From the NCBI RefSeq assembly GCF_030649675.1, contig NZ_JAUTDR010000025.1, positions 1-53,552 of the forward strand: DNA of 53,552 nt, written 5' to 3'. Source of the DNA: Haliea sp. E1-2-M8. Its GTDB lineage: Bacteria > Pseudomonadota > Gammaproteobacteria > Pseudomonadales > Halieaceae. This document shows, one piece after another, positions 14,578 through 49,918 of this stretch; the first letter of the stretch is position 1, and each line of letters opens with the position of its first letter. A program made the translations under genes and the position numbers. The notes under the pieces are model-generated. The model searched no databases. It was not told the DNA's origin and was given only the letters and a program-made list of their open reading frames with translations.

Positions 14578-14705
14578 CGGGAGCCGGGATCGGGCGCCCG
14601 CGGTGGGCCCATGTCAGAGAATCTTCTTGAATTTCATTCGCCATTTTTGACGATTTGAAACCTTGGGAGTCTTGACCGCCGTGGCGGCAAGCTAAAATAA
14701 AGGCT

Positions 14706-15218: not shown

Positions 15219-15272
15219 AGGGTGGTTCCCATCCTGGAGTGCAAACAGTGTACTGCGTACCGCGCCCGCCGT

Positions 15273-15405
15273 GTAGGAGCCCGCTGTGTGGGAGCCCGCC
15301 GTGTGGGAGCCCGCTGTGTGGGAGCCCGCTCCGCGGGCGATCTGTACGAGTGGGAGCCCGCTCTGCGGGCGATTGGTGGCTATCGCCCGCAGAGCGGGCT
15401 CCTAC
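15273..15405. repeat. REP/BIME-like repeat cluster
   Basis: Four short copies of GTGTGGGAGCCCGC(C/T) run in tandem with 15-16 bp spacing, then two complete palindromes follow: GGGAGCCCGCTCTGCGGGCGAT and its inverse ATCGCCCGCAGAGCGGGCTCC, ending in CTAC at 15405. The core is the same as in the RAYT-linked array. It lies between the thiL stop and the pgpA start. Confidence 0.8.
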
Positions 15406-15419
15406 AGAGAGAGCGCGGG

Positions 15420-31034: not shown

Positions 31035-31667
31035 GTAGGAGCGCGGTCCCCGCGCGATGGGTTTTCGCCCGCGGAGCGGGCTCCCACGTGGAATTGGCAA
31101 TTTTCACCCGTAGGAGCGCGGTCTCCGCGCGATGGGTTTTCGCCCGCGGAGCGGGCTCCCACGTGGAATTGGCAATTTTCGCCCGTAGGAGCGCGGTCCC
31201 CGCGCGATGGGTTTTCGCCCGCGGAGCGGGCTCCCACGTGGAATTGGCAATTTTCACCCGTAGGAGCGCGGTCTCCGCGCGATGGGTTTTCGCCCGCGGA
31301 GCGGGCTCCCACGTGGAATTGGCAATTTTCGCCCGTAGGAGCGCGGTCCCCGCGCGATGGGTTTTCGCCCGCGGAGCGGGCTCCCACGTGGAATTGGCAA
31401 TTTTCACCCGTAGGAGCGCGGTCTCCGCGCGATGGGTTTTCGCCCGCGGAGCGGGCTCCCACGTGGAATTGGCAATTTTCGCCCGTAGGAGCGCGGTCCC
31501 CGCGCGATGGGTTTTCGCCCGCGGAGCGGGCTCCCACGTGGAATTGGCAATTTTCACCCGTAGGAGCGCGGTCTCCGCGCGATGGGTTTTCGCCCGCGGA
31601 GCGGGCTCCCACAAGTAGCGGAGCGGGCTCCCACAAGTAGCGGAGCGGGCTCCCGGGCTCCCACATG
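31035..31667. repeat. 75-bp tandem REP array with 150-bp higher-order period
   Basis: Eight units start at 31035, 31110, 31185, 31260, 31335, 31410, 31485 and 31560, exactly 75 bp apart; the last is shortened. Each contains two facing REP palindromes (GTAGGAGCGCGGTC... and ...GCGGAGCGGGCTCCCAC) joined by GATGGGTTTTCGCCC, plus the spacer GTGGAATTGGCAATTTTC. Units alternate GGTCCCCGCG and GGTCTCCGCG, and their spacers alternate TTTTCACCC and TTTTCGCCC, so the true period is a 150-bp dimer repeated four times. Partial copies AGTAGCGGAGCGGGCTCCCAC end the array. Because 75 is a multiple of three, long meaningless open frames run through it on both strands. Confidence 0.95.
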
Positions 31668-32126: not shown

Positions 32127-33176
32127 CTACAGCAGGAAGTAGGCAGCGGCGGCAGCGATCACCACCACTGCGCCAATGAGCAGCGGCAGCCTGGAACCGC
32201 TCGCCTTGGCAGCACTGGCTTTGGCACCACCCGCGGCGCTGTTGCCGCCCTTGGCGGGTGCGCTGCCGGAGGCCGGCGCGTTGGCGCTGCCCCGGAACAC
32301 CAGGTTGACGTTGCCCAGGCGTATCTGGTCGCCGTCGCCGAGATAGGCGGTCAGGCGTTTTTCCCCATTCACGAAGATGCCGTTGGCAGACACCAGGTTG
32401 ACCAGGCGCCAGCGACCGCCCTGGTGGATCAGCTGGGCGTGGCGGGCGGAGACACTGGGCTCGTCGAGCATGATCTCGCAGCTGTCCTCGCGGCCGATTT
32501 CCCACACGTCCGGGTCGCCGCTCGCACCCGGCTCCAGCTCCATGACATCCGCCGCCGCGCCGTCGCGCACAACAATAAGATGAGGCAGATCGGAGGAGCG
32601 CCCCACATCCGCCGCAGCCGTCTCTGCCACAGAATCCATGGACAGGAACTGGGTGTGCTCGCCGGTGCCGCCCTCAGTCCAGCTTCCCGGAAGATCGGGA
32701 CTAACCGACGCGGGCCTGGGCGGCGGCTCTGGGGCGGGAGCCGCAGCAGGAGCCGGTGCGGGCTCGGGGGCGGGTGCTGGAGCGGGCGGTGGCGCAGCTT
32801 CGGCTGCAAGCGGCGTGACCACGGTAGCGTCATCGCCCAGCGGGGCAACCACTGTGGCGTCGCCGTCAGCCGCTGCCGGTGCCGCCCCTTCCACCACAAC
32901 CCGGAATTTGTATTTGTCGAACTGGATATCGTCGCTGTGCTTGAGTTCTACCGACCCGACCAGGCGCAGCCCGTTGACCAGGGTGCCATTGGCGGAGCCC
33001 ATGTCCTCAAGCAGCAGCTTGTTATCCTCGACCCGCAGCACCGCGTGGTTGCGGGATACCCGAGGGTCTGCAATTGTAATCTCGCAATCGTCGGTGCGCC
33101 CGACCCGCATTTCACCCGCCAGGGCGTGCTCCGTGCCGTCCTGCGCCACCAGTGTGGCAGTGAATTCAGCCGTCAT
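32127..33176 (-). CDS. Double-FHA-domain tail-anchored membrane protein
   Basis: The protein (349 aa) has two FHA domains, each with the canonical phosphothreonine-binding G-R...S-x2-H...SANG pattern: FHA1 around MRVGRTDDCE, VSRNHAVL and GSANGTLVNG (about 22-70), and FHA2 around EIGREDSCE, VSARHAQL and VSANGIFVNG (about 225-275). A Pro/Ala-rich linker (about 110-165) joins them. A single C-terminal helix LPLLIGAVVVIAAAAAYFLL anchors it in the inner membrane with the FHA domains in the cytoplasm. It is the last gene of the cytochrome operon, 2 bp after the PP2C gene. Probably it binds phosphorylated partners in this system, but no Ser/Thr kinase is encoded in the window. Confidence 0.85.
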   Translation of the reverse strand: MTAEFTATLVAQDGTEHALAGEMRVGRTDDCEITIADPRVSRNHAVLRVEDNKLLLEDMGSANGTLVNGLRLVGSVELKHSDDIQFDKYKFRVVVEGAAPAAADGDATVVAPLGDDATVVTPLAAEAAPPPAPAPAPEPAPAPAAAPAPEPPPRPASVSPDLPGSWTEGGTGEHTQFLSMDSVAETAAADVGRSSDLPHLIVVRDGAAADVMELEPGASGDPDVWEIGREDSCEIMLDEPSVSARHAQLIHQGGRWRLVNLVSANGIFVNGEKRLTAYLGDGDQIRLGNVNLVFRGSANAPASGSAPAKGGNSAAGGAKASAAKASGSRLPLLIGAVVVIAAAAAYFLL

Positions 33177-33178
33177 AC

Positions 33179-34270
33179 CTAACTCCCCCAGGCCCCGACA
33201 AAGGGACCGAATACAAACCATGCCGCTGCGGCGGACACCGCCAGCAGGGCAATCAGCGCCAGAGTCAAAATGCGCCGGCGCCGTTTTTTCGCTGGCAGTT
33301 CCAGCGCGACCCGACGCAGCTCGGACATTTCATCTGCCGACATCATCTGGGTGGCCTCGGGCGCCCTGGGGGCGACCCGCGCCCTCCTCGGTGCCGGCGC
33401 CGCGGCGGCTGGCGCATCATCCGCCACCGGCAAACCTGGCTGCACCAGCTCCGGCAGACCATGGTAATCGCCGGTGGCGGGATCATACCGCCAGACCACG
33501 TTGGGCTCCATAGCCGTGTCGTCCCCGGCCTCGGGTTCAGGCTGAGACCCGTTGCCGGCCCACTGCACCAGAACAACCGTGACGTTGTCGCGGCCACCGT
33601 TGCTCACCGCCGTCTGCACCAGTTGCTGACAGCGCTGCTCCAGGGGCTGGTCCTGAGCCAGGATTGCCGCCAGGCGGTCACAGTCAATGACGTCGCTGAG
33701 GCCGTCGCTACAGAGGACCAGAATATCATCCGCCTGGAGCTGGCCCCTGTTGCTGCCAACCCGCAGCTTGTCCTCGTCCTGCAGACCAATCGCCTGCACG
33801 ATGACATTCTTGCGCGGGTGGTGGCGCGCCTCGGCGAAGGTGATCTGCCCCTTCTCCAGCAGTGCTTCCACATAGGAGTGGTCGCGGGTCAGCAATTTCA
33901 GCTGCCCGTCCCAGAGGTAGGCGCGGCTGTCACCTACCCAGGCCAGTTCATAGCGTGGCCCGTCGAATTGGGCCGCGACCACGGTGGTAGCCATGCCCGC
34001 CTTGCCGCGGCCGGCGGCGACCGCGTCGCGCACCTCCAGATTGGCGCTGCGAATGGCGCCCTCGAGATCGCCAATGCCGTGCACATCCCGCGCCAGTACC
34101 TCGCAGGTTACCAGGCTGGCGACCTCACCTGCCTGATGGCCGCCGACACCGTCAGCCACCACCATCAGACCCAGCGCATCGTCGACAAAGAATGCGTCTT
34201 CGTTGTGCTCGCGCCGACCGACGTCGGTAGCGCCGCAAGTCAGCCAGCGGGCATCCGCCTGTTGCTTCAT
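33179..34270 (-). CDS. PP2C-family Ser/Thr phosphatase, membrane-anchored
   Basis: The protein (363 aa) is a PPM/PP2C phosphatase. Metal and active-site motifs are complete: REHNEDAF, MVVADGVGGHQAGEVAS (about residues 36-52), AWVGDSRAYLW, LVLCSDGLSDVI and GGRDNVTVVLV. A linker rich in Ala and Pro follows, then a basic stretch KKRRRR and one membrane helix ILTLALIALLAVSAAAAWFVF near the C-terminus, so the catalytic domain faces the cytoplasm. Its start overlaps the pentaheme cytochrome gene stop by ATGA, which ties it to the cytochrome operon. With the neighbouring double-FHA protein it forms a phospho-signalling pair. No kinase is nearby. Confidence 0.9.
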   Translation of the reverse strand: MKQQADARWLTCGATDVGRREHNEDAFFVDDALGLMVVADGVGGHQAGEVASLVTCEVLARDVHGIGDLEGAIRSANLEVRDAVAAGRGKAGMATTVVAAQFDGPRYELAWVGDSRAYLWDGQLKLLTRDHSYVEALLEKGQITFAEARHHPRKNVIVQAIGLQDEDKLRVGSNRGQLQADDILVLCSDGLSDVIDCDRLAAILAQDQPLEQRCQQLVQTAVSNGGRDNVTVVLVQWAGNGSQPEPEAGDDTAMEPNVVWRYDPATGDYHGLPELVQPGLPVADDAPAAAAPAPRRARVAPRAPEATQMMSADEMSELRRVALELPAKKRRRRILTLALIALLAVSAAAAWFVFGPFVGAWGS

Positions 34271-35556
34271 AGGGCTCCCATCAACTGCCTTGCCAGTACC
34301 GCGAACTGCTGCGGTACAAAGCGATTTTCATCCTCCACTGAAGCATACAGGGCATCGAGACGTGGCTTCAGCCGTTCCGCATCACCCAGCGACAGGGACA
34401 GGGTCTCGACCGCCAGGAACGCCTGCTCGGCGGCGGTGAAATGGCGGAAGCGCTCGGCGGCAGACTGGGCCAGCAATTCCCGGCGCAGTTGCCGCTGCTG
34501 CTCTGGACCGTACTCGCCCTTGCTGAGTTGATCCACCAGCGGCTCCAGACGCGCGTGCAGGGCGCGGGCAGCGCTCACCACCCGCTCCCGGGACTGCAGC
34601 GAGGCCTGGTGCAGGGCATTGAGATCACTGCGCAGGCCCGCAACGTCGCCCGGGGAGAGAGTTTCCAGCACCGCCAGCAACAGCACCAGGCTGGCGTCAT
34701 TGAGTCGCGCGGTTCCCGGCGGCAGCCGGTCGGGCTCCTGCGACCAGCGCAGGTCATCCATGGGATGGTGGCACGCGTGGCACTGGAAGAACGACAGCTC
34801 GGGCACCAGGCTGGGCTGTGTGAACCATTCTTCCTGCAGCAGCTCCAGGGTGTGCATGCCGGTGACCGCGAGCCCCGCCAGCCACATGTTGACCGAGGCG
34901 ATGTAGGGCTTGCGCTCACGGTAGTCCGCGTCCGCCTCATAGTGGGCGGGCTGGTTGACGGTGAAGGTCTCCAGCTCGAAGGCCAGCCGCGGGTGGCCGG
35001 CGCCCATGATCTCGTGGGTGGCAAACTTGTCCCTGGTTCCCAGGTGGCAGGACAGGCACAGCCGCGCCCGGGCCATCGGGTCCTCGGTGGGGTACATCCC
35101 CTGGGCGATGTTGTCGGCGTGGCTGGTGGTGGTCTCGGCATGGGACTCCAGCCAGCGTCCGCCGCCGCCGTGACAGGCCTCGCAGCCGACGCCGTCGGAA
35201 ATCTGGAAGCGGCGGCCGCGGCTGTCGGCGGGCACGTTGTCCGCGTGGCAGTCCAGGCAGATTTTCGCCCCCTGGGCGCTGGGCAGGCCGAGTTTGTCGG
35301 CGATGGCCTGGGACTGGGCAGTCTGCAGGGTTCGGTAGGCCCGGGAGTGGTAATCCTGGCGCAGCCAGACCCGGTACTCATTGAGCCAGACATTGGATTC
35401 CGGATCGGCACTCACCTTGCCGTGACAGACACTGGTGGCACAGCTGGCGACACCCTGGTGGATGTCGGCGCCCTCCTCCGGCAACGGCTGGGCGTGGGCA
35501 GTGCCTGCGGCAATACCCAGCAGCAGCGCCAGTGCGGTCAGTTTTCTACGAACCAT
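34267..35556 (-). CDS. Periplasmic multiheme cytochrome c (c554-like)
   Basis: The protein (429 aa) begins with a signal peptide (KLTALALLLGIAAGTAHA, cleavage near AHAQ). It has four canonical heme-binding sites (CLDCH, CEACH, CLSCH, CHACH) and one C-x4-CH site (CATSVCH near residue 39), so up to five hemes. The N-terminal half resembles the cytochrome c554 family found in hydroxylamine-oxidising and related multiheme chains; the C-terminal half (about 270-429) is helical and heme-free. It overlaps the decaheme gene by 19 bp and the PP2C gene by four. It is probably a periplasmic electron carrier between the inner-membrane decaheme protein and the outer-membrane complex. Confidence 0.85.
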   Translation of the reverse strand: MVRRKLTALALLLGIAAGTAHAQPLPEEGADIHQGVASCATSVCHGKVSADPESNVWLNEYRVWLRQDYHSRAYRTLQTAQSQAIADKLGLPSAQGAKICLDCHADNVPADSRGRRFQISDGVGCEACHGGGGRWLESHAETTTSHADNIAQGMYPTEDPMARARLCLSCHLGTRDKFATHEIMGAGHPRLAFELETFTVNQPAHYEADADYRERKPYIASVNMWLAGLAVTGMHTLELLQEEWFTQPSLVPELSFFQCHACHHPMDDLRWSQEPDRLPPGTARLNDASLVLLLAVLETLSPGDVAGLRSDLNALHQASLQSRERVVSAARALHARLEPLVDQLSKGEYGPEQQRQLRRELLAQSAAERFRHFTAAEQAFLAVETLSLSLGDAERLKPRLDALYASVEDENRFVPQQFAVLARQLMGAL

Positions 35557-38500
35557 GGCTTGCCATCTTTGTCAGTGAAGAGTTTGCGCATTTCGTCCAG
35601 GTTCAGCGGCCGCGCGCCAATACGGCCGAATACTGCCACCTGGCCACCGGTTTCGTCCACGCCGCGATCGCGCTCCAGGCCCCGGCTCAGGGACAGCGCC
35701 GGAGAACTGGTCGGGTAGCTGGCGATCAACTGCGGCGCGGGCTGCGGCGAGAAACCGTAGAACTTGGGCTGGCTCGACGGCGAGAACAGCTGGACAACCT
35801 TGAGCCCGCCGGCACCATCCGCGACATAGGCGAACAGCGAGGCGTTGGTGGCGCCGACCGCCACGTCATGGGCGTCGACCAGGCCCTCACTGAAGGTCTG
35901 CAGCAGGCGTATCCGGTCGGGCCGCGTGATATCGACAATGGCCATGCCCTCGCGGCCCGCCGCGACATAGGCATAGGTGCGCGCCAGGTGCAGGCGCCGC
36001 GCCTGATCCAGGGGAATGGTGTTGTCCGCGACCAGTACCGGCGCCTCGGGGTTGGTGACGTCGATGGTCTTGAGGCCGTCGGCATCGGTGACGAACAGGT
36101 AGCGGAACTGCAGGGCCACGGAGTGACCGCGGTGCAGCGGGACGACATCCACCAGCCGCGGCTGCAGGGGCTGGTCCAGGTTCACCACCACCAGGCCTGC
36201 GTCGGCGACGATATAGGCGTAGTAGCCCCCCAGCACCATGTGCCGGGCGCCGTCGAGCACGCCGTTCTCGTTCCAGGTGAGGTCGCGTTCCAGGAAGTTG
36301 TTGCGCGGCTCGCCGTCGGACAGGGTGTTGACGTCGGTGAGTATCAGGCCCTCCTCGGTATCGGTGATCAGCACGTAGTTGTAGATCGGATGGAAGGGCT
36401 GCTCCAGGTTGACATCCCGCATCAGCTCACCCTCGTTGCGATCGGGGTGGATGGGCTGGTTGGTCGGCAGCACCACACAGGTCGCGTTGCTGCTGGGGAT
36501 GCGGGTGTCGTGGCCCAGGGCGCTGAAGGGCGCGGTGATGACCCGCTGGGAAATACCCTTGTTGGCGATGCCGGCGATGTCGTATACGCGCATGCCCCTG
36601 TCGCCCTCGGCGACAAACAGGTACTCGCCGCGATGCTGGACACAGGACGCCGGGCCGGTGCTGTGCGGATAGCCGTGCAGCAGTTGCCGGTCATTGCCCT
36701 GATGCTCGGCAAACCAGTCCGGGTAGGCGTAGCGGTGCAGGTAGGAGCCTATGACCGCCTGGGGCTCATCCCACTCGGTCACCTGCACCCCGGTGACGTG
36801 CTCTTCCCCGCCGACCCAGGCGTAGTAACCCACCAGGTTGACGAAGCCGGTGCCGTACATCAGCAGCTGCGCCATGATCGCGTTGTTGTCGTTGTTCTTC
36901 GACAGGTGGCAGTCCTCGCAGTCCTTGGTCTCGGTCTTGCGCACGGTGTGGGCGAAGTGCGGGTTGAAGGCCTGGGAGCTGTAGCCACTGGCGGCGATGG
37001 GCGGCTGCTGGATGTAGATCTTCTCGCGGTTGGCGTTGGTGGAGGACAGCACCAGCGCCGAGGTGGAGCGCACCGGCGCGATCTTGCCGCCCTTGGCGGC
37101 CTCGCGGCGACCCAGCAGGAACATCTGGTCCCTGGACACCTGCGGGTTGTAGGTGGCCCAGTTGCGCGAGTAGCCACCCTCGTAGTGCTTGCGCTCGGTC
37201 TTGTAGTTGGCCTCGATCGGCAGGTGGCAGCCGGCGCAGCTGGTAGTCCAGGAGGTGTGGCAGGTATAGCACTCCATGTCCTCGTTGCTGTGGGCCAGGT
37301 TGTCGCTGTCGACATCCAGGCCGAAATCCTGCTCCGCCGTGTCCCTGCTCATCAGCTTGGCCCGGGCAGCTTTCTCGTTGTAGCCGGTGTGGGCCGGGTC
37401 CACCGTATCCTTCACCAGGCTCATCTCCCACTCCAGGTCGGGGTCGAGCACCGAGCGCTGGACTAGGGTGTTGCCGTTCCACTCGAAGCGCAGGCGCCCG
37501 TCCGGATTGCGGATGGCGCCGAGGTCGGTGCCGCCATCGAGGGCGGCGGGGCCGGAAGTGAACAGGTTGGGATAGGCCGTGGCGGAGCCGTGGCAATCCT
37601 TGCAGTCGATCTCCACCGCGGCGGCCACTTCACCGTAGATGTGGCCGTTGCCGTGGTTGTCCTGGGCAAAGTGGCAGTCGACGCAGTGCATGCCCTTGTC
37701 CAGGTGAATGGAGGACATGTGCACGGCTTTCTGGAACTTGTCAGGATCGGTGTCCTCGACCACGTCCCCCTCCGCATCCAGCAGGTTGCCGGTGCGGTCC
37801 CGCTTGAACACGGCGCGGAAGTTCCAGCCGTGGCCGTGATAGTCGGCAAACTGGGTGTCGGTCAGGGTCGGGTTCAGCTCGGACACCTTTTCCAGAAAGT
37901 CCACGTCCGCCCACTTGCCCCGCGGTGCGGCGCCCTCCGGGTTGCGTTCCAGCACCGAGACCTGCTCTTCATGGGTCGGGTACACCTGCTCCTCCGGCCA
38001 CATGGACGGCGCGTCGGACTCGTAGTCCCACATGGTGTAGCCGAGGAAGCTGTTGACGAACATATTGGGCTGGTGCATGTGGCAGGACATGCACTGGGCG
38101 GTGGGGATGGCACGGGTGAAGGCGTGCTTCAGCGGGTGCCCCTTGCGATCCTTGGGGATGGTCGGGTCCACGGTCCGGGATTTGCCGGTATGACCAAACT
38201 CGGCGTACTGGCCGGAGTGGCGCGGGTCACGATCGTTGGCGTAGATCACGTGGCAGGCGGCGCAGCCCGACTGGCGGTAGTCCCCGGGCTGGTCATTGGT
38301 GCCGAGAAACCAGGTGTGGGGGTCATTCAGGCGGGTCTTGGTGATGTTGATCACCGGCACCGAGATCCGCGCACCGGTACCGGGGCCGCGGTTGGACTGG
38401 CGGAAATCGGGCCGGCCGGGTTCCTCGAGCCGCTGCAGCTGGCCCAGGGCATTGGGCAGGCCGGTCTCCGGGAACAGGTTGGTGATATTGCGGCCGCCGC

Positions 38501-39278
38501 GCTCGAACACGCGGAAGATATCCCCGGGCTTGATGGTCTCCCAGGCTGGCAGCGGGTACAGCTCGGGCAGAATGCTGGCCATGGTCATTTCGGCGGTAGG
38601 TTGCACCGGGCCGGGGATCATCGCCGGCTCCCCTTCGCGGGTGTAGGCCTCGCCGAGGATATAGCGCTTGTAGGGCAGGATGCCGTTGTTGTAGGCGGCG
38701 CCGCCCCAGAGCATGGCCGAGGTCGCCATCAGGCTGCGCTCCGCCGCCTCGATGATCGGCAGGTGACAGGCGCCGCAGGCCTCGCGGGCAATGCGGTAGT
38801 CCGACGGATTGACAAAGCGGGTGAACTCCGGGCTCTCCCGGTTCAGCAGGGTGTAGGTACGCTCGGGGTTGGCGCTGGAGGGGTAGTGCCAGGACTCCGG
38901 GTAGCGCGGCAGCACGTGGGCCTGCTCCATGACCGCCAGGTAGGCCGGATCCTCAATCCCGTCGCCGCTGGTGCGCCGTACCTTGGCGTCGCCGCCATGG
39001 CAATCGGTGCAACCCAGCTTGACCGCCGGGTTCGCGTGCATGGTTTTCTCATCGGTTTGCGTATGGCAGGTGACGCAGCCCGCGGATTTCGCCTCCATCT
39101 GCGCATTGCTCTGGCTGGCCGGGGCGTCGGGCGCCGTCACATGGTCACGTTCCACCGCTTCTTCGCCGGCAGCCCCCAGGGCCAGGCTCACGGGTAGCAC
39201 CAGCAGTGCCGCCAGCAGGCCCGCCGCCCAGCAGTGAATGGGCTTGTGGAAAGGTCGAGTGTGATCAGATGTGCTCAT
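35538..39278 (-). CDS. Decaheme cytochrome c fused to LVIVD repeats
   Basis: This is a very large exported protein (1246 aa). The N-terminal segment WAAGLLAALLVLPVSLALGA acts as signal or anchor. Ten CxxCH sites follow: CVTCH, CTDCH, CGACH, CAACH, CMSCH, CVDCH, CKDCH, CYTCH, CAGCH and CEDCH, between about residues 65 and 800. From about 870 to 1190 there are six LVIVD-type blades (for example YLFVAEGDRGMRVYDI, YAYIVADAGLVVVNL, YAYVAAGREGMAIVDI), likely a beta-propeller-like ligand or partner surface. ATG 39278 is taken; an in-frame GTG at 39287 abuts the barrel stop. It directly follows the outer-membrane barrel gene, so the two probably form a porin-cytochrome unit. Confidence 0.88.
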   Translation of the reverse strand: MSTSDHTRPFHKPIHCWAAGLLAALLVLPVSLALGAAGEEAVERDHVTAPDAPASQSNAQMEAKSAGCVTCHTQTDEKTMHANPAVKLGCTDCHGGDAKVRRTSGDGIEDPAYLAVMEQAHVLPRYPESWHYPSSANPERTYTLLNRESPEFTRFVNPSDYRIAREACGACHLPIIEAAERSLMATSAMLWGGAAYNNGILPYKRYILGEAYTREGEPAMIPGPVQPTAEMTMASILPELYPLPAWETIKPGDIFRVFERGGRNITNLFPETGLPNALGQLQRLEEPGRPDFRQSNRGPGTGARISVPVINITKTRLNDPHTWFLGTNDQPGDYRQSGCAACHVIYANDRDPRHSGQYAEFGHTGKSRTVDPTIPKDRKGHPLKHAFTRAIPTAQCMSCHMHQPNMFVNSFLGYTMWDYESDAPSMWPEEQVYPTHEEQVSVLERNPEGAAPRGKWADVDFLEKVSELNPTLTDTQFADYHGHGWNFRAVFKRDRTGNLLDAEGDVVEDTDPDKFQKAVHMSSIHLDKGMHCVDCHFAQDNHGNGHIYGEVAAAVEIDCKDCHGSATAYPNLFTSGPAALDGGTDLGAIRNPDGRLRFEWNGNTLVQRSVLDPDLEWEMSLVKDTVDPAHTGYNEKAARAKLMSRDTAEQDFGLDVDSDNLAHSNEDMECYTCHTSWTTSCAGCHLPIEANYKTERKHYEGGYSRNWATYNPQVSRDQMFLLGRREAAKGGKIAPVRSTSALVLSSTNANREKIYIQQPPIAASGYSSQAFNPHFAHTVRKTETKDCEDCHLSKNNDNNAIMAQLLMYGTGFVNLVGYYAWVGGEEHVTGVQVTEWDEPQAVIGSYLHRYAYPDWFAEHQGNDRQLLHGYPHSTGPASCVQHRGEYLFVAEGDRGMRVYDIAGIANKGISQRVITAPFSALGHDTRIPSSNATCVVLPTNQPIHPDRNEGELMRDVNLEQPFHPIYNYVLITDTEEGLILTDVNTLSDGEPRNNFLERDLTWNENGVLDGARHMVLGGYYAYIVADAGLVVVNLDQPLQPRLVDVVPLHRGHSVALQFRYLFVTDADGLKTIDVTNPEAPVLVADNTIPLDQARRLHLARTYAYVAAGREGMAIVDITRPDRIRLLQTFSEGLVDAHDVAVGATNASLFAYVADGAGGLKVVQLFSPSSQPKFYGFSPQPAPQLIASYPTSSPALSLSRGLERDRGVDETGGQVAVFGRIGARPLNLDEMRKLFTDKDGKPWFVEN

Positions 39279-39287
39279 AACGGCCAC

Positions 39288-41177: not shown

Positions 41178-41182
41178 AGCGC

Positions 41183-43159
41183 TCACTTCCCTGCACACAC
41201 TTGCTGTGCGTCGCTGTTGATGAACGGCGTCTGCGGGCACTGGATATAGCGCAGGCGCCCCCCCCCGGGCGTCAGCTGGTCGGCGCGAATCTCCGGCGGT
41301 GCGTTGTTGATGCTGCCGCCGAGGGCCTCCCCGGCCTCGTGCACGCCGAGGAAGGAGATCATGTCGTCCTGTTCGATGCCGTCACCGGACACGCCGATGC
41401 CGCCGATGAGCGTGTCGCCGCGGTACACCGGCACGCTGCCGGGAAATATCTGGATGCCGTTGGCTATCCGCGGCTGGGCCGACTGGGCGCAGTTGGCGCC
41501 GACGTCGGTGTCGCTCAGGCCCGCGACAAAGGCAATGTGGTCGACAATACTGTTGAAGGACAGGTCCAGCTGCAGCCCGGTGGAGAACACGCTCCACTCG
41601 CTGTCGTAGGGCTTGCTGAAGGGGCCGTGGGGATTGCCGATGATGCCGTCCGGGTAGAACGGCCGCGACAGGTTGCCGCCGGAGCGGTCGGCAAAGGCGG
41701 TGCCGTCGGTGAGCGCCTGGGGGCCGATAAACAGCTGGGCGGCATCCACATAGTCGCCGATATTCACCGTGGCCGCGGGGCTCAGGTCCGGGTTCCGGTA
41801 CTGGGTCTGGGTGGTGATGCCGCGGAGGAAATCCGCCGCATCCCGGGACGAGAACAGCACTGCGGTGCGGGCCTTCTGCAGGGACACGTCGGCGCCGAAT
41901 ACGGGGGCATCGCGGGTGCGCAGTATGCCGAGGATGACGCCGCGGCTGTCGACCACGGACACGGTGACCCGCGCCGGGGTCCCCACCGGCCGGCGGATCT
42001 GGGCGCGGGCGCGGTTGGCGACGCCAATCGCGCTGGTCAGCAGCTGCCGCACTTCCGCTGCGCTGAAAGCCCCCTCGCCGAGTGCAGCGCCATCGGTGCC
42101 GGCCCGGGGCGGGAAGCGGTTGTTGTTGCCGCCGTCGACAAACACGAAGGCGTCCAGACCGGGGAAATCGGTGGCCGGGCGCACGCCGGACCCGGGCTGG
42201 CCAAAGGCGGTGCCGCGGCGGACCTCGCCACTGCTGTAGCCACGCACCGCCAGCAACTCACCCGCCGCCACCAGGCTGGCAAAGCCGGGAGCCTGGGCCG
42301 GATCCGCCGGCAGGTCTGCCAGGTCCACATCACTGAAGCGGAATACCTTGCCCTCCACGGTAATGCGCTCGGCCCGGCGATCCGGCGGTGCGATAAAGCC
42401 GAAGCTGGCGGCCAGCGCGATCTGCTCGTCGACGTCCACATCGCTGTCCAGCAGGCTCTTGTCGATGCTGTAGCGGCCGTCGGCGATCACCCCGACCCCG
42501 CCCACTGGCGTGCCGCCCTTGTACAGGGGGAAGCCGCCGGGATCCGCCGCCAGGCCCAGGGGCGAGCGGCGCGGGCCGACGCCGGTGGCGACGCCGCCGA
42601 GGGTAAAGTCGGAGCAGGCCAGCTGGCTGAACTGCACGCCAAACAGCGGCCCCCCCGGCTGGTTGCGCTCGCCGGGGTTGAAGTGCTCCTGCACGATCTG
42701 GTTCGCGGTGCGGGTAGTAAAGGCGTTGCCTTCGCTGGACAGATAGGCGCCGGTGATCGCCTTGGCAATCGCTGCCAGCGCATCTCCACCCACCGCCACC
42801 GGCAGAATTACCCCCTCAAGGCCGGCGCTGACCTGCACCGGGAAGTCGGTCGCCAGCTGCACGTCATTGGCGGCGCCGACACCCGCCATCCGGTATACCG
42901 CCAGCACGTTGCCCACGCGGTCGACCACCGCGATGGTGGCGGCGGCCCCCAGGGCCTCGGCCTGGTGCACGCCCTGGGCCAGCACCCGGCGCACCTCGTC
43001 CGCCGCGAGAAAGCTGCTGGCGCTGGCGCACTGGCCCTCGCAGGGCGCATCGTCCGGCGCGCGATCCGGTGAACTGCCCTCGGTGCTGCCACCGCCGCCA
43101 CCGCCGCCGCAGGCCGCAACCGCGGCGATACCAAAAATACAGATCAGCTGCCGCATCAT
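41183..43159 (-). CDS. Lipoprotein with two GlcG/HbpS-like (DUF336) domains
   Basis: The protein (658 aa) starts with a lipoprotein signal (CIFGIAAVAAC followed by a seven-glycine run). Two halves each show GlcG/HbpS-like features: domain 1 with FLAADEVRRVLAQGVHQAEA and IAVVDRVGNVLAVYRM (about 49-300), and domain 2 with FSAAEVRQLLTSAIGVANRA and VSVVDSRGVILGILRT (about 360-610). Both contain the V(Y/L)xGG(T/V)xxGGxGV turn (GGTPVGGVGV, GDTLIGGIGV). Single-domain relatives bind heme or cobalamin-like ligands. It overlaps the preceding gene by four bases (ATGA). Localisation in the outer membrane or on the surface is plausible; its role in the chain is unknown. Confidence 0.8.
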   Translation of the reverse strand: MMRQLICIFGIAAVAACGGGGGGGSTEGSSPDRAPDDAPCEGQCASASSFLAADEVRRVLAQGVHQAEALGAAATIAVVDRVGNVLAVYRMAGVGAANDVQLATDFPVQVSAGLEGVILPVAVGGDALAAIAKAITGAYLSSEGNAFTTRTANQIVQEHFNPGERNQPGGPLFGVQFSQLACSDFTLGGVATGVGPRRSPLGLAADPGGFPLYKGGTPVGGVGVIADGRYSIDKSLLDSDVDVDEQIALAASFGFIAPPDRRAERITVEGKVFRFSDVDLADLPADPAQAPGFASLVAAGELLAVRGYSSGEVRRGTAFGQPGSGVRPATDFPGLDAFVFVDGGNNNRFPPRAGTDGAALGEGAFSAAEVRQLLTSAIGVANRARAQIRRPVGTPARVTVSVVDSRGVILGILRTRDAPVFGADVSLQKARTAVLFSSRDAADFLRGITTQTQYRNPDLSPAATVNIGDYVDAAQLFIGPQALTDGTAFADRSGGNLSRPFYPDGIIGNPHGPFSKPYDSEWSVFSTGLQLDLSFNSIVDHIAFVAGLSDTDVGANCAQSAQPRIANGIQIFPGSVPVYRGDTLIGGIGVSGDGIEQDDMISFLGVHEAGEALGGSINNAPPEIRADQLTPGGGRLRYIQCPQTPFINSDAQQVCAGK

Positions 43160-44868
43160 GGCGCTCCCCCCTGCAGTAGTGCGCTATCGCGCGCCAGCCG
43201 GGACAGGGTGCCCCCGTCCGGATGGAAGGCGTGGCAGCTCACACAATCCAGAGTCGCCGCGCCCTGGTCGTCGGCGTGACAGGCAAGACAGTTGTCCTGG
43301 TTGGGCATGAGAATATCCTCCGCCGCATTCGACGTTGAGGCTTCGTGACAGGTCTCACAGACCTGGTCCGGGTTGTCCGCTGCCTGGCTCTGGTGGCTGT
43401 GGTGATCAAACCGGGCCTGGGGATACCAGTCGCCGGTCAGGCGGATAGGCTGTACAAACCAGCGGTCATTGATGTCAGCGAGCCCCGTCTCCAGCACTTC
43501 GTGGCAGGTGATGCAGCCGGTGTTGGCAAACTGGTACTCCGCTTCCTTGAGCGCCTCGGCGCGACCGCATTCGAGGCCGCTGCCCTCGCAGCTGGCGGCG
43601 GAGTCACGCTTGCCGGGCACCCGCCGCGGTTTCTCCGCCGCGCGCTGGCGGCGCAGTTCCGGGTCGGTGAATTCGCGGATGAAGTGCGCCTCCATGGCGA
43701 CGATCGCCGCCCGCAGGTCGCCGTGGGGCAGCTCCAGCTCGGGCTCGAAAATATCGAAGCTCAGGCCGTGACAACTGCGGCAGTGGGCGTCCATGGTGAT
43801 CGGTTCAAAGTGCTCGCCGTCATCCTTCAGGGTGTGGCAGCTGGCACATTCCAGCGCTGCTCCGGTGCCCTCGTGCTGCACCTTGGCCGGGTCCAGGTGC
43901 ACTTCGTGGGTAAACTTGAGATTGGACGCTTCCTGCAGCGGTTCGGCGCCCGGACGCTCCCGGCGCACCTCCCAGCCGTGGGCGGCGCCGATACCCTGCG
44001 GTTCCAGCAGGGCCAGACGGAAGGTCGGGTGACCGGCGGCGGTAAAGCCGGTCACCGCGTCCATGGGTGCCTTGCCCGCCACTTCCCAGTCACCGGGGCC
44101 GGCGTGGCAGTCCACGCACAGGCCCTTGTCGCGGCGGGAAACCATGGCCGGCTCATTGTGCTCGCGGTGGCAGGAGGCACAGCGCACGCCGGTAAAGGCA
44201 TGGGCGTCGTGGACCGCGATGTCGACGTGCTCGCTCATGCCGCGGTGGCAGTCGAGGCAGGCGCCGTCCTGCACCATCACGAAGGGTTTCTGGTGGCAGG
44301 CCTCGCACTCCTGGGCGATGCCGGAAGCCTGGTGGGCCGCTACCAGTGGCCCACTGGACCAGAGGTTGTCGTCCGGCAGCGGCGTGCTGCGCAGGGTGTC
44401 GGCGACGTCGCTGCGCCAGAGCCCGGCCGCGGGCACCACCAGCCCCAGCAGGAGCACCGCCAGCGCCAGCAACCAGCTGGTCCTGCGGATACTCCAGGCG
44501 TGGCGCTCCAGACTGACATCGCCGGCAAAGCTGCTGGCGGGTTTGCCCCGGGTCTGCAACTGCAGGGCAAAATCAAAGCCCTGGGGCGCAGCGATGACCT
44601 CCAGTGCGTAGCCTGGCAACTCGAAGCTGTCGCCCACCGCCAGCGTCGCCTTGCTGCTGGCAACGCCGTCAACCGTGATCACCGGGCGCCGGGCGGTAAT
44701 ACGCCCGCCGCCATCACCGCTGGCCTGAATGGTGACATCGCCGCCGACGCCCGGCAGGGGCACCATGGCGCCGGGCTCCCCACCCAGGGTGAGCTTGTCG
44801 CCCTGGTATTCGGTTTCCAGCGCTTCGCCGCTAGCGCGACCGGTCAGTTTGCGAACCAGAAAATACAT
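43156..44868 (-). CDS. FHA-like head, one membrane helix, periplasmic decaheme cytochrome
   Basis: The protein (570 aa) has three parts. Residues about 1-115 form a small beta-rich FHA-like domain (DKLTLGGEPGAMVPLPG, ITVDGVASSKATLAVGDSF) without canonical phosphothreonine-binding residues. Residues 131-151 (SWLLALAVLLLGLVVPAAGLW) form one membrane helix after a basic RRT. The remainder carries ten CxxCH sites: CEACH, CLDCH, CASCH, CVDCH, CASCH, CRSCH, CITCH, CETCH, CLACH and CVSCH. Topology would put the FHA-like part in the cytoplasm and the hemes in the periplasm. It follows the cytochrome b gene after 4 bp and likely takes electrons from it. I know of no characterised protein with this fusion. 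Confidence 0.82.
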   Translation of the reverse strand: MYFLVRKLTGRASGEALETEYQGDKLTLGGEPGAMVPLPGVGGDVTIQASGDGGGRITARRPVITVDGVASSKATLAVGDSFELPGYALEVIAAPQGFDFALQLQTRGKPASSFAGDVSLERHAWSIRRTSWLLALAVLLLGLVVPAAGLWRSDVADTLRSTPLPDDNLWSSGPLVAAHQASGIAQECEACHQKPFVMVQDGACLDCHRGMSEHVDIAVHDAHAFTGVRCASCHREHNEPAMVSRRDKGLCVDCHAGPGDWEVAGKAPMDAVTGFTAAGHPTFRLALLEPQGIGAAHGWEVRRERPGAEPLQEASNLKFTHEVHLDPAKVQHEGTGAALECASCHTLKDDGEHFEPITMDAHCRSCHGLSFDIFEPELELPHGDLRAAIVAMEAHFIREFTDPELRRQRAAEKPRRVPGKRDSAASCEGSGLECGRAEALKEAEYQFANTGCITCHEVLETGLADINDRWFVQPIRLTGDWYPQARFDHHSHQSQAADNPDQVCETCHEASTSNAAEDILMPNQDNCLACHADDQGAATLDCVSCHAFHPDGGTLSRLARDSALLQGGAP

Positions 44869-44872
44869 CGGG

Positions 44873-45766
44873 CTACCAGTAGATGAAGACTGTGAGGATG
44901 TGGACCACCAGTGCCACCAGCAGGCCCATCGTCAGGGGAATATGGAAATACAGCCAGATCTTCATCAGGCCTCGCAGTTGGACCTCGCGCCGCAGCTGGT
45001 GCAACAGCACCTGGCGGCGACCAAACAGGCCCAGCAGCTCGTTGAGCACCTCCGCCTCGGATTGTTTGCGGGCGTCGGGGATGCGCCCGGCCAGATGGCT
45101 GACAACCACCTCCTGCTCCACATTGGCCACGGCCTGGGCCTTCTGGGTGTCGCTGCCCGGGACCATGACCCGCGACCGGTCCCGGGCCAGCAGTTGCTGC
45201 CAGGCCGAGCCGCCAACGCGGGTCAGCTCCAGGGCGCTGATCATCAGCGACTGCAGGTTCGCATCGCAGCGCTCGGAGGTATCGCGGACGCGGGCATCGA
45301 TCCTGGCCAGCTCGTCCAGACGCCCGTCCTCGCCGCTGCCGGACTGGATGGAGGCCAGGCGGCCGGGGAGGTGCATATAGGCGTAGAGGCCATAGAAACC
45401 GGAGACCACAACCAGGCACATCAGGACGTAGGCCAGGGTGTGCACGTTGAAGCCGAACTGCAGCGCACAGTGCAGCGTCGCCACCACCAGCAGGACGGTG
45501 CCCAGATACACATGCGCCGAGGCCCAGCCCTGGACCGTGCCGGCGGTGGATTTGTAGCTGCGCTTGCGCACGCCCAGCAGGCTCAGCCAGACGATGAGCA
45601 GAGCGCCCAGGGTACCCAGGACATACCCCTGCCAGGTGCCGCCGTTGGGCGGTTGCGCGGCGTTGCTGCCGCCCTGGGTCACATACAGGGCGACACTCAG
45701 CAGCAACAGCACCAGCCCCCATTTCAGGTAGCGGTACTGTTGCCAGCCAAGCAGGCTCTCGCGCAT
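44873..45766 (-). CDS. Membrane cytochrome b with two H-X13-H pairs
   Basis: The protein (297 aa) has five predicted membrane helices, at about 13-31, 46-64, 83-104, 108-130 and 270-296. Histidines at 85 and 99 in the third helix and at 275 and 289 in the fifth are each 13 residues apart, the classic arrangement for two stacked b hemes bridging two helices, as in b561/ferric-reductase-like and respiratory cytochromes b. A long, charged cytoplasmic-type loop (about 132-265) separates helices four and five. It lies 2 bp after the FAD/Fe-S gene and 4 bp before the FHA-decaheme gene, so it is the obvious transmembrane link between them. It may also exchange with quinones. Confidence 0.8.
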   Translation of the reverse strand: MRESLLGWQQYRYLKWGLVLLLLSVALYVTQGGSNAAQPPNGGTWQGYVLGTLGALLIVWLSLLGVRKRSYKSTAGTVQGWASAHVYLGTVLLVVATLHCALQFGFNVHTLAYVLMCLVVVSGFYGLYAYMHLPGRLASIQSGSGEDGRLDELARIDARVRDTSERCDANLQSLMISALELTRVGGSAWQQLLARDRSRVMVPGSDTQKAQAVANVEQEVVVSHLAGRIPDARKQSEAEVLNELLGLFGRRQVLLHQLRREVQLRGLMKIWLYFHIPLTMGLLVALVVHILTVFIYW

Positions 45767-45768
45767 TC

Positions 45769-48255
45769 TCAGCGTGCCTCGACCAGGGCGACGAACTGCT
45801 CCGGGGACAGGCGCATGGCAGCGCCGGTGGGGCAGGCTCGCACGCAGGCCGGGCCGCCGGCCTGGCCCATGCAGGCGTCACATTTCACCGCTTTCTTGCC
45901 GCGTTCCTTGTCGGCCGCGGCCGGGGTAAAGCTTTGCGGCTGGCCCGGGCCCGAGCCGCGCCCGAACAGCAGCCAGGACAGCAGCCCCGGCTTGGGCGGC
46001 GCGGCATAGCTCAGCTTGATGGCGTTGTACGGGCAGTTGGTTTCGCAGTTGCCGCAGCCGATGCAGCTATCGGTGATAAACACCTCGCCGTCGGCAGAGC
46101 GGCGGATCGCATCCGGCGGGCAATCCTTCATGCAGTGCGGCAACTCGCAGTGGCGACAGGAAATGGGCACATGCAGGTTGGCGAAGGACGGGCCAGCGGC
46201 GCGGTTCAGCCGGGTCAATCCGCCGTGGGTTTCGGCACAGGCGCGCTCGCAGTTGTCGCAGCCCACGCAGAGGGATTCGTCGATGACCAGGGCGTTGGTG
46301 GCTTCCCCCAGGCCCTGCTCCATGAGGAAACCGATGGAGCGGGCCGCCTCGGGCTGGGACGCCATGGCGTTGGTCTTTTCCAGCAGCGAGCTCAAGCGCC
46401 CCTGCAGAGTGGCGACGTGCTCCGGCTGGCTGTTGACCAGGGTCAGGAATTCCGCGCGTTTGACCTTGATGGTCTCGGTGCGCACGGCGGCGACGGCGGT
46501 GTCCCGCCGCAGAGGTGCGCCCATCAGCGCCATCTGCCCCACGAGGTCGCCGGAGTGGTGCTGGGCCACCACCATGTTGGCGCTGCCCCGGGAAAGCACC
46601 ACGGTGCCGCTGCGGATCAGGTGCAGGCAATCGCCTTCCTCGCCCTCGGAAAACAGGGCCTGGCCGGCATTGAAGCGGCAGGTCTCCACCTGGCCCGCCA
46701 CCGCGGACAGCTCCGCCAGCGGCAGGTCGGGGCGGAACGCGGCCTGCAGCGCGCGCACGATGAAGATGCGATCGATGCCCTTGCGCACCTCGTCGTTGGA
46801 GTTCATCAGCTTGACCATGATCCGGCGCGGCGTCTCGATCAGGATCGCGTCCTCGCTGACCACCGCGTCGCCCTGCCGCGGGCGACCCGAGATCAGGCTC
46901 ATTTCGCCGAAGAACTGGCCCGGCTTGAGCGTGTGCCAGGGCCCGTCCTGCTCCAGCTGCAGCTTCACTTCCCCTTCCACCAGGGTGTAGAACGTGGTGC
47001 TGAATTCGCCGTTGCGATAGACCGGCTCCCCCGCCGGAATGAATACGGTGGAGCGCTCGCCCTTCTGTTCCGTGTGGGCGAGATCAGCCGGCGGCAGGCT
47101 GACCAGGATCCGGCTCTCGATAATCAGCTCGCGGAAGGCCAGCGGGTTCATCCGCCGGAACATCGGAATGCGCTGCTGGTACAGCTCCAGAACATCCTCC
47201 GCGTCCATCACATAGGGCAGGCCCGAGAACTGGTCCTGCAGCAGCGGGTAGTCGGCGGGCTTGGTGTTCTTGCCGTGGATGAACTCGATGACGTCGTAGC
47301 CCTGGTTCATGGCCTGCTTGATCAGCGGGTACCCACCCAGGGCGCCGATGACGTAGAGGCCGGGCACGTTGCTCTGGTAGTGGCGGTCCACGTCCGGCAC
47401 CGCATCGGCGCTGGGACTGCTGATCTCGATGCCGCAGGACTCGACGAAGCTGCGCGGGGGGATGGTGCCGAGACGGGCAATAATGCGATGGCAGGCCAGG
47501 CGCTCTTCGCCCGCAGGCGTATTGAGCACAATGGCGCCCATCTCGCCGGGGCTGGCGGGCAGTTCGACACCGGCTACGCCGGCTTCGTAGCGGCAGTGGA
47601 AAGGCCTGCTCTTGTCGTTGATCGCCGCCAGCACGGCATTCAGGTTGCCGTCCTTGGCGCGGCTGAATTCATTGCGCCGGTTGATGATATAGACGTTGTT
47701 GTAGTCGGACAGGGCGATGGCGTTTTCGATGGCGGCGTCACCGGCGCCCACCACGGCAATGGTCTCTTTCTTGAAGTCCTCGGGATCGTCGAGGGTATAG
47801 CGGACGAAGTCCGATTCGGCGTCATTCTTCACTCCCAGGCTGCGGGGGTTGCCCTGGGTACCGATGGACAGCACCACATGCTCGGCTTCAATTTCATCCC
47901 CGGATTGCAGCTGGAGCACAAACTGGCCGCGGCTGCCGCTGATGCCGGTTACATCGCTGTCGTAGCGGACATTCAGGCCGCTATCGATACTGTCCTGCCA
48001 GGCGCCGAGGATCTCTTCCCGCCTGCCGGCGACAAAGGGCACCGGGCTGCGCAGGGCGAGGAACCCGGGCTCGTCCATGACGTGCTTGCCCTTCTGGTAC
48101 TTCTGGATGGTCTTGGCAAAAATTGAAAAGCCTTCCAGCAGGACGTAGCTGGGGCTGGTGGCACCGGCTTCACGATCGTACTCCGCCGCCCTGCCCGCGG
48201 CACTCAGACCCGCGGGACCCGCGCCCACAACGGCAATGTGATATCTCTCCCCCAA
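45769..48255 (-). CDS. FAD/NAD(P) oxidoreductase with two cNMP-binding domains and four [4Fe-4S] clusters
   Basis: The cytoplasmic protein (828 aa) combines three modules. Residues about 1-330 form a YpdA/thioredoxin-reductase-like flavoprotein with FAD motif VVGAGPAGLSA and NAD(P) motif VVGAGDAAIENA but no redox CxxC. Residues about 400-640 hold two cyclic-nucleotide-binding-like domains (GQFFGEMSLISGRPRQGDAV and GDLVGQMALMGAPLRRDTAV). Residues about 670-815 form a DmsB/NarH-like ferredoxin with four cysteine groups: CVGCDNCERAC, CRHCELPHCMKDC, CIGCGNCETNC and CDACMGQAGGPACVRAC. The start is TTG 48255 with AAGGGAAGGG upstream. It is the first gene of the operon and the likely NAD(P)H entry or exit point. 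Cyclic nucleotides may gate it. Confidence 0.87.
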   Translation of the reverse strand: MGERYHIAVVGAGPAGLSAAGRAAEYDREAGATSPSYVLLEGFSIFAKTIQKYQKGKHVMDEPGFLALRSPVPFVAGRREEILGAWQDSIDSGLNVRYDSDVTGISGSRGQFVLQLQSGDEIEAEHVVLSIGTQGNPRSLGVKNDAESDFVRYTLDDPEDFKKETIAVVGAGDAAIENAIALSDYNNVYIINRRNEFSRAKDGNLNAVLAAINDKSRPFHCRYEAGVAGVELPASPGEMGAIVLNTPAGEERLACHRIIARLGTIPPRSFVESCGIEISSPSADAVPDVDRHYQSNVPGLYVIGALGGYPLIKQAMNQGYDVIEFIHGKNTKPADYPLLQDQFSGLPYVMDAEDVLELYQQRIPMFRRMNPLAFRELIIESRILVSLPPADLAHTEQKGERSTVFIPAGEPVYRNGEFSTTFYTLVEGEVKLQLEQDGPWHTLKPGQFFGEMSLISGRPRQGDAVVSEDAILIETPRRIMVKLMNSNDEVRKGIDRIFIVRALQAAFRPDLPLAELSAVAGQVETCRFNAGQALFSEGEEGDCLHLIRSGTVVLSRGSANMVVAQHHSGDLVGQMALMGAPLRRDTAVAAVRTETIKVKRAEFLTLVNSQPEHVATLQGRLSSLLEKTNAMASQPEAARSIGFLMEQGLGEATNALVIDESLCVGCDNCERACAETHGGLTRLNRAAGPSFANLHVPISCRHCELPHCMKDCPPDAIRRSADGEVFITDSCIGCGNCETNCPYNAIKLSYAAPPKPGLLSWLLFGRGSGPGQPQSFTPAAADKERGKKAVKCDACMGQAGGPACVRACPTGAAMRLSPEQFVALVEAR

Positions 48256-48316: not shown

Positions 48317-48346
48317 ACTATAGACGCCGAACCCCGGATTGCCCAA
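48317..48346 (-). promoter_or_regulatory. Probable sigma-70 promoter of the cytochrome operon
   Basis: On the minus strand TTGGGC (48346-48341) and TATAGT (48322-48317) are separated by 18 bp, about 60 bp upstream of the TTG start of the flavoprotein gene. The leader between them is AT-rich (TTAATAATAAATAAGG). No FNR or CRP palindrome is evident nearby. Confidence 0.5.
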
Positions 48347-49769: not shown

Positions 49770-49918
49770 GCCCTGTCCTGCTCCTGTGATCGGGGGAAAA
49801 AAACCTGTGCCCGGCTATCGGTTGCCGGGTGAGCTGGGTATCCTAGTACCCTGCCTCATGAATATCGACACATTCTGCGGCCGCCTGAGTGCGCTTGCCC
49901 AACACTGCCGGATTGCCC

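Follow-up and report, generated by a model that had tools for sequence, protein, structure and literature searches.

A nine-gene cluster of Haliea sp. E1-2-M8 that may link an NAD(P)H-type flavoprotein to multiheme cytochromes and an outer-membrane barrel

We analyzed a nine-gene operon in a stretch of 53,552 nucleotides from Haliea sp. E1-2-M8 (contig NZ_JAUTDR010000025.1, positions 1 to 53,552 of the forward strand; referred to as the window). The operon is a new relative of PCC4, a little-studied predicted system, and judging by its gene families it appears to combine a PCC4-type inner module with a different flavoprotein and a new outer module. As the best explanation we propose, with a probability of roughly 50%, a chain that is fed by NAD(P)H and leads outward to an end station at an outer-membrane channel, where a small molecule would be the acceptor. 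We computed family membership, heme and iron-sulfur (Fe-S) motifs, gene neighborhoods, co-occurrence (including that of unlinked genes), the homology between the inner half and PCC4-fitting clusters, and a model of the barrel fold. The operon consists of the following features, in which FAD is flavin adenine dinucleotide, cNMP denotes cyclic nucleotides, and TM stands for transmembrane:

P0009, 45769..48255, minus strand: YpdA/thioredoxin-reductase-like FAD/NAD(P)H domain (no CXXC), two cNMP-binding domains, and four [4Fe-4S] cysteine sets
P0008, 44873..45766, minus strand: putative inner-membrane diheme cytochrome b with two WX3HX13H motifs (W81, W271) and SGXXG (S122)
P0007, 43156..44868, minus strand: degenerate FHA head, one TM-like stretch (127-145), and a periplasmic decaheme domain
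P0006, 41183..43159, minus strand: double GlcG/HbpS-like lipoprotein with no c-heme motif
P0005, 39288..41240, minus strand: outer-membrane beta-barrel of ~18 strands with an AlgE-like fold; the start is probably the ATG at residue 22
P0004, 35538..39287, minus strand: secreted decaheme domain and C-terminal LVIVD beta-propeller
P0003, 34267..35556, minus strand: periplasmic, cytochrome c554-like pentaheme cytochrome, the first heme motif being CX4CH, followed by four CXXCH
P0002, 33179..34270, minus strand: PP2C phosphatase with four motif patterns and a C-terminal TM-like stretch; accessory
P0001, 32127..33221, minus strand: two canonical FHA domains and a C-terminal TM-like stretch; accessory; the start is probably residue 16
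Promoter-like site, 48317..48345, minus strand: in the gap between radA and the operon; the number of such sites is not above chance

As the initial annotation had it, all nine genes run leftward on the minus strand, from position 48255 (P0009) down to 32127 (P0001). Their tight spacing was also confirmed: adjoining open reading frames (ORFs) overlap by 4 to 58 bases or are spaced by 0 to 4 bases (junctions of -58 to +4), and some overlaps are smaller, since several listed ORF starts probably lie 5' of the true starts. The motif scan gave 10 + 10 + 5 = 25 c-heme motifs, in agreement with the up to 25 c-type hemes claimed earlier, to which two b hemes may be added.

A profile scan of the GTDB species genomes with P0004 returned at least 594 matched stretches, and at least 593 of these encode a relative; because the scan used two patterns, one locus may count twice. 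For the locus counts, the best 80 of the at least 593 loci were kept, titled Gamma-, Beta-, and Alphaproteobacteria and including 40 with 9 kb on both sides, and a gene was scored as present at a profile score above 60 bits. Several findings can be derived from these data. (i) Among the 40 fully flanked loci, the flavoprotein, the cytochrome b, and the FHA-headed decaheme cytochrome were each found in 39, the double GlcG protein in 38, a porin beside the P0004 gene in all 40, the pentaheme cytochrome in 31, and the PP2C and double-FHA proteins in 18 each; the corresponding numbers for all 80 loci, contig ends included, were 62, 60, 62, 67, 76, 61, 27, and 24. The single conserved unit that had been proposed was borne out, with PP2C and double-FHA as accessory members. 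(ii) The flavin/Fe-S, cytochrome b, and decaheme genes occurred together in 55 of the 57 clusters with 9 kb upstream. For the sole fully flanked locus lacking this core (L077), a P0009 homologue is encoded at another place in the genome, as was found in four of the five genomes checked; the exception (L094) is a 2.1-Mb assembly. (iii) In a sample of 398 genomes that includes the window's own, P0004 was detected in 11 and P0009 in 15 at an E value of 1e-100, with all 11 shared (hypergeometric probability of 1.6e-18, or 4.2e-17 without the own genome; kinship is uncorrected, and 7 of the 11 belong to one family). The two genes are ~667 kb apart in genome G436, ~620 kb apart in G566, and on separate contigs in G610, and linkage alone therefore does not explain their co-occurrence.

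Hosts include isolates of Parahaliea, Steroidobacter, Pseudoteredinibacter, and Tahibacter, and the closest P0004 locus among the matches listed is that of a metagenome-assembled genome (MAG) of an uncultured Haliea (94%). In Sphingobium, the set is located on plasmids; at least 80% of P0009 is covered in 12 plasmid records, two of which were examined. On these megaplasmids (L024, 9279-30332, and L025) the system is split into two divergent blocks with a cyclic-nucleotide-phosphodiesterase-like gene and lies within a few kb of a gene whose annotation in L024 is two-partner-secretion transporter. Three loci (L092, L105, and L110) whose records are titled as MAGs of Bordetella parapertussis and Klebsiella pneumoniae fall among environmental Beta- and Gammaproteobacteria in the tree, and their titles are probably wrong. 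Outside the cluster, the most frequent neighboring family was found in 8 of the 80 named loci, and none of the families names a substrate.

The first component, P0009, is presumably cytoplasmic. Pfam identified Pyr_redox_2, two cNMP_binding, and Fer4 domains as well as PF13247 (38.2 bits, cutoff of 26.2), and no TM stretch was found in the protein. Its four sets of four cysteines begin at C663, C700, C731, and C792, and each of the 16 cluster cysteines is kept in at least 14 of 15 aligned members. The flavin part (first 340 residues) contains CXXC in none of the 15 and is therefore not a disulfide reductase of the thioredoxin reductase kind. In the first cNMP pocket, residues E451 (E in 14 of 15) and R460 (R in 13 of 15) are conserved, which would support ligand binding; in the second, the window sequence has Q where E is expected. 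Cyclic-nucleotide control, as put forward in the initial annotation, stands as a possible input by virtue of the first pocket; the gating itself is what we infer. A P0009-type protein of ~1120 amino acids fused to cytochrome b, followed by a decaheme gene with 9 CXXCH, was observed in L147 (3052-6420) and L148 (7850-11203), and no P0004 match was found in the genomes of these two loci. In six further loci, mostly titled Betaproteobacteria (L079, L091, L096, L102, L105, and L115), the flavoprotein gene is at the operon tail.

P0008 has four TM-like stretches, and its two WX3HX13H motifs recur in 79 of 79 P0008-related ORFs, all of which also contain [ST]GXXG somewhere; Pfam gave only a match below threshold, to Ni_hydr_CYTB (19.5 bits versus a cutoff of 30.1), and NCBIfam no relevant match. 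P0007 has one TM-like stretch and 10 CXXCH motifs, a number found in 52 of 55 sequences, with 9 in the remaining 3. Four CXXCH plus CX4CH are present in 54 of 54 P0003 sequences, and 10 CXXCH in 69 of 69 P0004 sequences. These counts refer to length-filtered relatives from the 80 named loci and the window, incomplete or odd-length ORFs having been dropped beforehand; they are nearly constant, and the heme motifs in P0004, P0007, and P0003 are thus beyond chance. At the limits used, no solved structural relatives of P0004, P0008, P0003, and P0005 were retrieved.

The inner half has counterparts in the literature. In passages of He et al. 2017 (PMC5566968), PCC3 and PCC4 are predicted clusters whose inner-membrane protein contains SGXXG and two WX3HX13H motifs; PCC4 comprises a porin and periplasmic multiheme cytochromes with 4, 5, and 10 heme sites, and in its subgroup II a PF13247 Fe-S gene lies upstream of the inner-membrane gene. 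PCC4-type clusters are proposed there for extracellular electron transfer, and PCC4 was found in iron oxidizers. P0008 carries the inner-membrane signature (W81/W271, S122), and PF13247 is present in P0009, whose gene is upstream of P0008. A P0008 profile detected homologues in 33 of the 398 genomes, 15 of which are the P0009 genomes; from the other 18 we examined 15 neighborhoods and assigned them to PCC4- or PCC3-type loci by gene content, not against published sequences. (i) Five loci (L211, L214, L221, L222, and L224) contain in a row a flavoprotein-pattern gene, a cytochrome with 3 or 4 CXXCH, a cNMP/Fe-S protein, a cytochrome b, and a decaheme cytochrome. The fullest fit is L224, with 5-, 4-, and 10-CXXCH genes and a 459-residue gene (no Pfam match) in the place of the porin; L222 has 5-, 3-, and 10-CXXCH genes, and no 5-heme gene was seen in the examined stretches of L211, L214, and L221. 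Two more loci (L218 and L223) are partially PCC4-like. (ii) Five loci (L212, L213, L215, L216, and L225) are PCC3-like, with a gene of 21 to 24 CXXCH adjoining the cytochrome b together with a further multiheme gene of 8 to 34 CXXCH, two of these being cut by contig ends. (iii) The remaining three (L217, L219, and L220) have small partners with 6 to 8 CXXCH.

The PCC4-like cNMP/Fe-S proteins are homologous to residues ~436-826 of P0009 (E values of 1e-47 to 1e-60, six proteins) and the 3-4-CXXCH cytochromes to P0003 (1e-17 to 1e-24, five proteins), the E values being those for a small chosen set. Using hhalign, P0008 aligned with the PCC4-like cytochrome b at 99.4% (E value of 9e-22) and with the PCC3-like one at 98.7%, and the reverse search with the PCC4-like profile matched only P0008 in the window's genome. 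The anchored decaheme cytochrome of the PCC4-like loci aligned with the heme part of P0007 at 99.9% (E value of 2.5e-35, 337 columns). For the outer half, the presumed porin of L224, assigned by its place, showed no similarity to P0005 (0.1%), and P0004 shared with the L224 5-heme protein just a 35-column heme-motif match (25%). The PCC4-like flavoprotein contains FAD_binding_6, NAD_binding_1, and Fer2 by Pfam in the two loci scanned (L222 and L224); its sequence pattern occurs in six loci, in five of which the gene belongs to the row, whereas in L218 it lies ~7 kb away on the opposite strand. The earlier statement that known porin-cytochrome systems lack an NAD(P)H module had to be abandoned, since the clusters fitting PCC4 encode a flavoprotein together with homologues of the cNMP/Fe-S part of P0009 and of the cytochrome b. 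The NAD(P)H-type flavoproteins of the two systems are unrelated and stand beside homologous Fe-S, cytochrome b, and decaheme proteins, which argues for NAD(P)H as the cytoplasmic partner. A different assignment, with P0008 coupled by electron exchange to the quinone pool and P0009 acting as a regulator or side entry, would follow the model of He et al. for this cytochrome b class (in the same passages of PMC5566968) and agrees with a subthreshold match of P0008 to cytochrome b561; we consider it quite unlikely given that the core genes stay together in 55 of 57 clusters and that PCC4-like clusters pair another flavoprotein with the Fe-S protein.

The outer half of the operon is new and consists of the decaheme-propeller protein, the double GlcG lipoprotein, and an ~18-strand AlgE-like barrel without MtrB match. 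In P0004, the 10 CXXCH motifs are accompanied by LVIVD, and the list from its structure search was filled by propeller matches. P0006 is an HbpS/GlcG-like double-domain protein with a lipobox pattern in 42 of 53 relatives; by sequence, its nearest relative among solved GlcG-type structures is EfgA (E value of 1.5e-5), which we take to be a formaldehyde sensor. P0005 belongs to no Pfam family, and its AlphaFold2 model is a beta-barrel of ~18 strands resembling AlgE. An MtrB-like barrel was considered for P0005 and ruled out by a hidden Markov model (HMM) search and the strand count of one model: TIGR03509 (MtrB/PioB) did not match it, and its sole match in the genome lies on contig C3, where a real MtrB/PioB gene is located at 13983-16082. 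MtrB was not shown among the best 50 of 925 Foldseek matches or among 50 VIA-align entries, which is not proof of absence. These data bear on the idea of a true outer-membrane conduit, with P0004 in or through the P0005 barrel as in MtrAB and PioAB, that would serve metals, electrodes, or solids. The porin gene beside P0004 in 40 of 40 flanked loci, the homology of the inner half to clusters proposed for extracellular electron transfer (PMC5566968, passages cited above), and the name of the window's best named relative among the matches listed (a MAG called Biocath_Gamma) are in its favor. We nevertheless regard it as unlikely, because the barrel model is ~18-stranded and AlgE-like, the operon has no MtrB/PioB HMM match though the genome has a real one elsewhere, a lipobox-like pattern in just 1 of 68 P0004 and 6 of 53 P0003 relatives gives little sign of a surface-anchored cytochrome, and the hosts, going by their names, resemble ordinary heterotrophs. 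Passage of electrons across the outer membrane through the barrel is hypothetical.

P0004 also matched the ExtM model (E value of 4.5e-20) at 71.5 bits, far below the equivalog cutoff of 800 and with a best stretch of ~50 residues around heme motifs, and it barely matched ExtN and ExtO. Passages of a paper on Geobacter ext (PMC5877670) implicate ExtI, a non-MtrB channel, in selenite/tellurite reduction. By analogy with ext or with NADPH oxidases, the system could be a reductase that detoxifies metalloids or reactive oxygen, a reading that overlaps the best explanation and to which we assign a low probability: P0008 had no relevant NCBIfam match, and the ext cluster, as described in that source, relies on a Rieske protein and on a cytochrome b of the bc type.

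For the NAD(P)H-fed chain, we infer the order of the carriers, the outward direction, and the place of P0004 as follows. A hydride from NAD(P)H would be passed to the FAD of P0009, switched by a cyclic nucleotide on its cNMP domains, and electrons would continue through its four [4Fe-4S] clusters, cross the inner membrane via the two b hemes of P0008, and reach the ten periplasmic c hemes of P0007, anchored beside P0008. From there, P0003 and the decaheme-propeller protein P0004 would pass the electrons on to the outer membrane and to a possible end station made up of P0004, the AlgE-like channel P0005, and the lipoprotein P0006. The final acceptor appears likelier to be a small molecule or ligand that encounters P0004 at the channel or through it than a solid reached via an MtrAB-type wire. 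The cytoplasm-to-outer-membrane layout drawn in the initial annotation is supported by the succession of NAD(P)H-type flavin, four [4Fe-4S], cNMP, diheme b, and multiheme components. Outward flow is proposed on account of the strong reducing power of NAD(P)H and of the membrane potential, which favors electron movement outward; the chain would conserve no energy by itself, so that a switched on-demand reductase seems likelier than a principal respiratory route. Possible analogues are NADPH oxidases, ferric reductases, and MsrPQ. The reverse, in which an external or periplasmic donor such as Fe(II), Mn(II), or a cathode reduces NAD(P)+, would be consistent with the iron oxidizers that carry PCC4 (PMC5566968, as above) and with the Biocath label of the closest MAG among the matches listed. 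Electrons would then have to enter against the membrane potential and arrive at a very low potential without any visible coupling site, and we consider inward flow improbable. It also counts against this direction that we know of no lithotroph among the named hosts except a Nitrosomonas MAG.

Several observations weigh against the outward NAD(P)H-fed chain. NAD(P)H is the putative substrate of P0009 on the basis of fold and motif alone, and the quinone exchange proposed by He et al. fits the cytochrome b as well. The strand count of P0005 comes from one AlphaFold2 model, and the mean predicted local distance difference test values (75.0 and 74.5) are moderate and refer to single chains. The published 4/5/10 heme set is complete only in L224 among the five best PCC4-like loci. 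Finally, 5 of 14 chosen core-bearing genomes had no P0004 match; three of these (G058, G142, and G380) are less than 90% complete, and two (G244 and G275) are not. The outer module may therefore be separable.

The built-in phospho-signalling that the initial annotation had envisaged was not supported. The Pfam FHA profile did not match P0007 of the window, a weak point of the earlier assignment; 8 of 15 family members do match, and the family profile matches FHA structures such as GarA (E value of 1.8e-5). Of the phosphothreonine contact set G, R, S, H, the window head lacks R, S, and H (by alignment, in which 10 of 55 heads have a gap at H), and the complete set was found in 1 of 55 heads, not the window's. 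The head, presumably cytoplasmic, is probably a protein-docking head. Both FHA domains of P0001 carry the full set, and all four PP2C motif patterns are present in P0002 and in 3 of the 5 long PP2C sequences examined, the set being incomplete in L027 and L029; seven Hanks-type kinases are encoded elsewhere in the window's genome. On a quick tree of 52 P0004 sequences (no bootstrap), the label "PP2C or double-FHA nearby" changed 3 times versus 17.6 in shuffles, and these genes, present in 18 of 40 clusters each, are therefore clade-bound extras. Phospho-control is possible in this clade, outside the core system. In two Sphingobium plasmids and four alphaproteobacterial-type loci, a cyclic-nucleotide-phosphodiesterase-like gene (matches below NCBIfam cutoffs) instead adjoins the decaheme gene.

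Glutamate dehydrogenase genes were observed near the cluster, on either side, in 13 of 113 stretches searched (L027, L030, L031, L057, L061, L062, L067, L070, L093, L141, L143, L144, and L146; some stretches share one genome). The one scanned, from L067, belongs to the NADP-specific family, and a link to NADPH balance is possible. Acetolactate-synthase-like (10) and aldehyde-dehydrogenase genes (9, some weak or partial) also recur. Within the window, a radA-like gene (48381-49769) is next upstream of the operon, beside DnaT- and lambda replication protein P-family ORFs on the opposite strand (49889-51629, plus strand). The region contains 1 promoter-like site versus a mean of 1.6 in shuffles, and 5 terminator-like sites were found on both strands versus 7.8 in shuffles, so that there is no sign of an internal stop in the operon. 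An Rfam scan of the window at the gathering threshold gave no match. Downstream of the operon lie a 75-base tandem repeat (31035-31612, 7.7 copies, 97% matches), presumably a REP-type array, and an IS200-like transposase gene (23436-23882).

If the proposed chain is correct, a dedicated route from NAD(P)H to the outer membrane, gated by cyclic nucleotides, exists in many bacteria, and the quinone-linked role proposed for the PCC3/PCC4 class needs to be revised to a partly NAD(P)H-linked one. Relatives of the decaheme-propeller protein in at least 593 GTDB stretches point to a wide distribution, and cultured hosts exist. Tentatively, and with some doubt, one may go further and group this system with PCC4 as widespread trans-envelope chains that are switched by a cyclic nucleotide, circumvent the quinone pool, and deliver electrons of NAD(P)H to multiheme proteins located at a channel in the outer membrane. 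Such chains would be a bacterial counterpart of NADPH oxidases and ferric reductases, extended by 25 hemes, and would serve a surface reduction that nobody has named in ordinary aerobic Proteobacteria.

No paper recognizable as describing the nine-gene set was found in the open-licence PMC literature, and PCC4 is the closest known system. (i) MtrCAB, PioAB, and MtoAB likewise have a decaheme cytochrome and a barrel encoded together, whereas the operon has no MtrB/PioB match and the P0005 model is ~18-stranded and AlgE-like. (ii) Geobacter extHIJKLMNOPQS shares multiheme, Fe-S, and cytochrome b proteins, a non-MtrB channel, and the weak ExtM match of P0004; it differs by its Rieske and bc-type subunits, rhodanese, and selenocysteine pentaheme, and the passages concerned (PMC5877670) mention neither an NAD(P)H flavoprotein nor a cNMP protein. 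(iii) PCC3, as outlined in passages of He et al. 2017 and listed in a Sideroxydans proteome table of PMC12016527, shares a distantly homologous cytochrome b beside multiheme genes, whereas the 21-24-CXXCH gene of the PCC3-like loci has no counterpart in the window. (iv) PCC4 shares the cNMP/Fe-S protein with PF13247, the signature cytochrome b, a TM-anchored decaheme cytochrome with an N-terminal head, a tetra- or pentaheme c554-like cytochrome, an NAD(P)H-type flavoprotein, and, in the published description as far as cited here, a porin. Its flavoprotein is a separate FAD_binding_6/NAD_binding_1/Fer2 protein, a trait taken from the PCC4-like loci and not named in the cited text of He et al., whereas that of the window is YpdA/thioredoxin-reductase-like and fused to the Fe-S protein; its decaheme head is Cys-rich rather than FHA-like, each head being followed by one TM-like stretch; and its heme set is 4/5/10, compared to 5/10/10 in the window (5 being four CXXCH plus CX4CH). 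The decaheme-LVIVD propeller, the double GlcG lipoprotein, and the AlgE-like barrel are features of the window.

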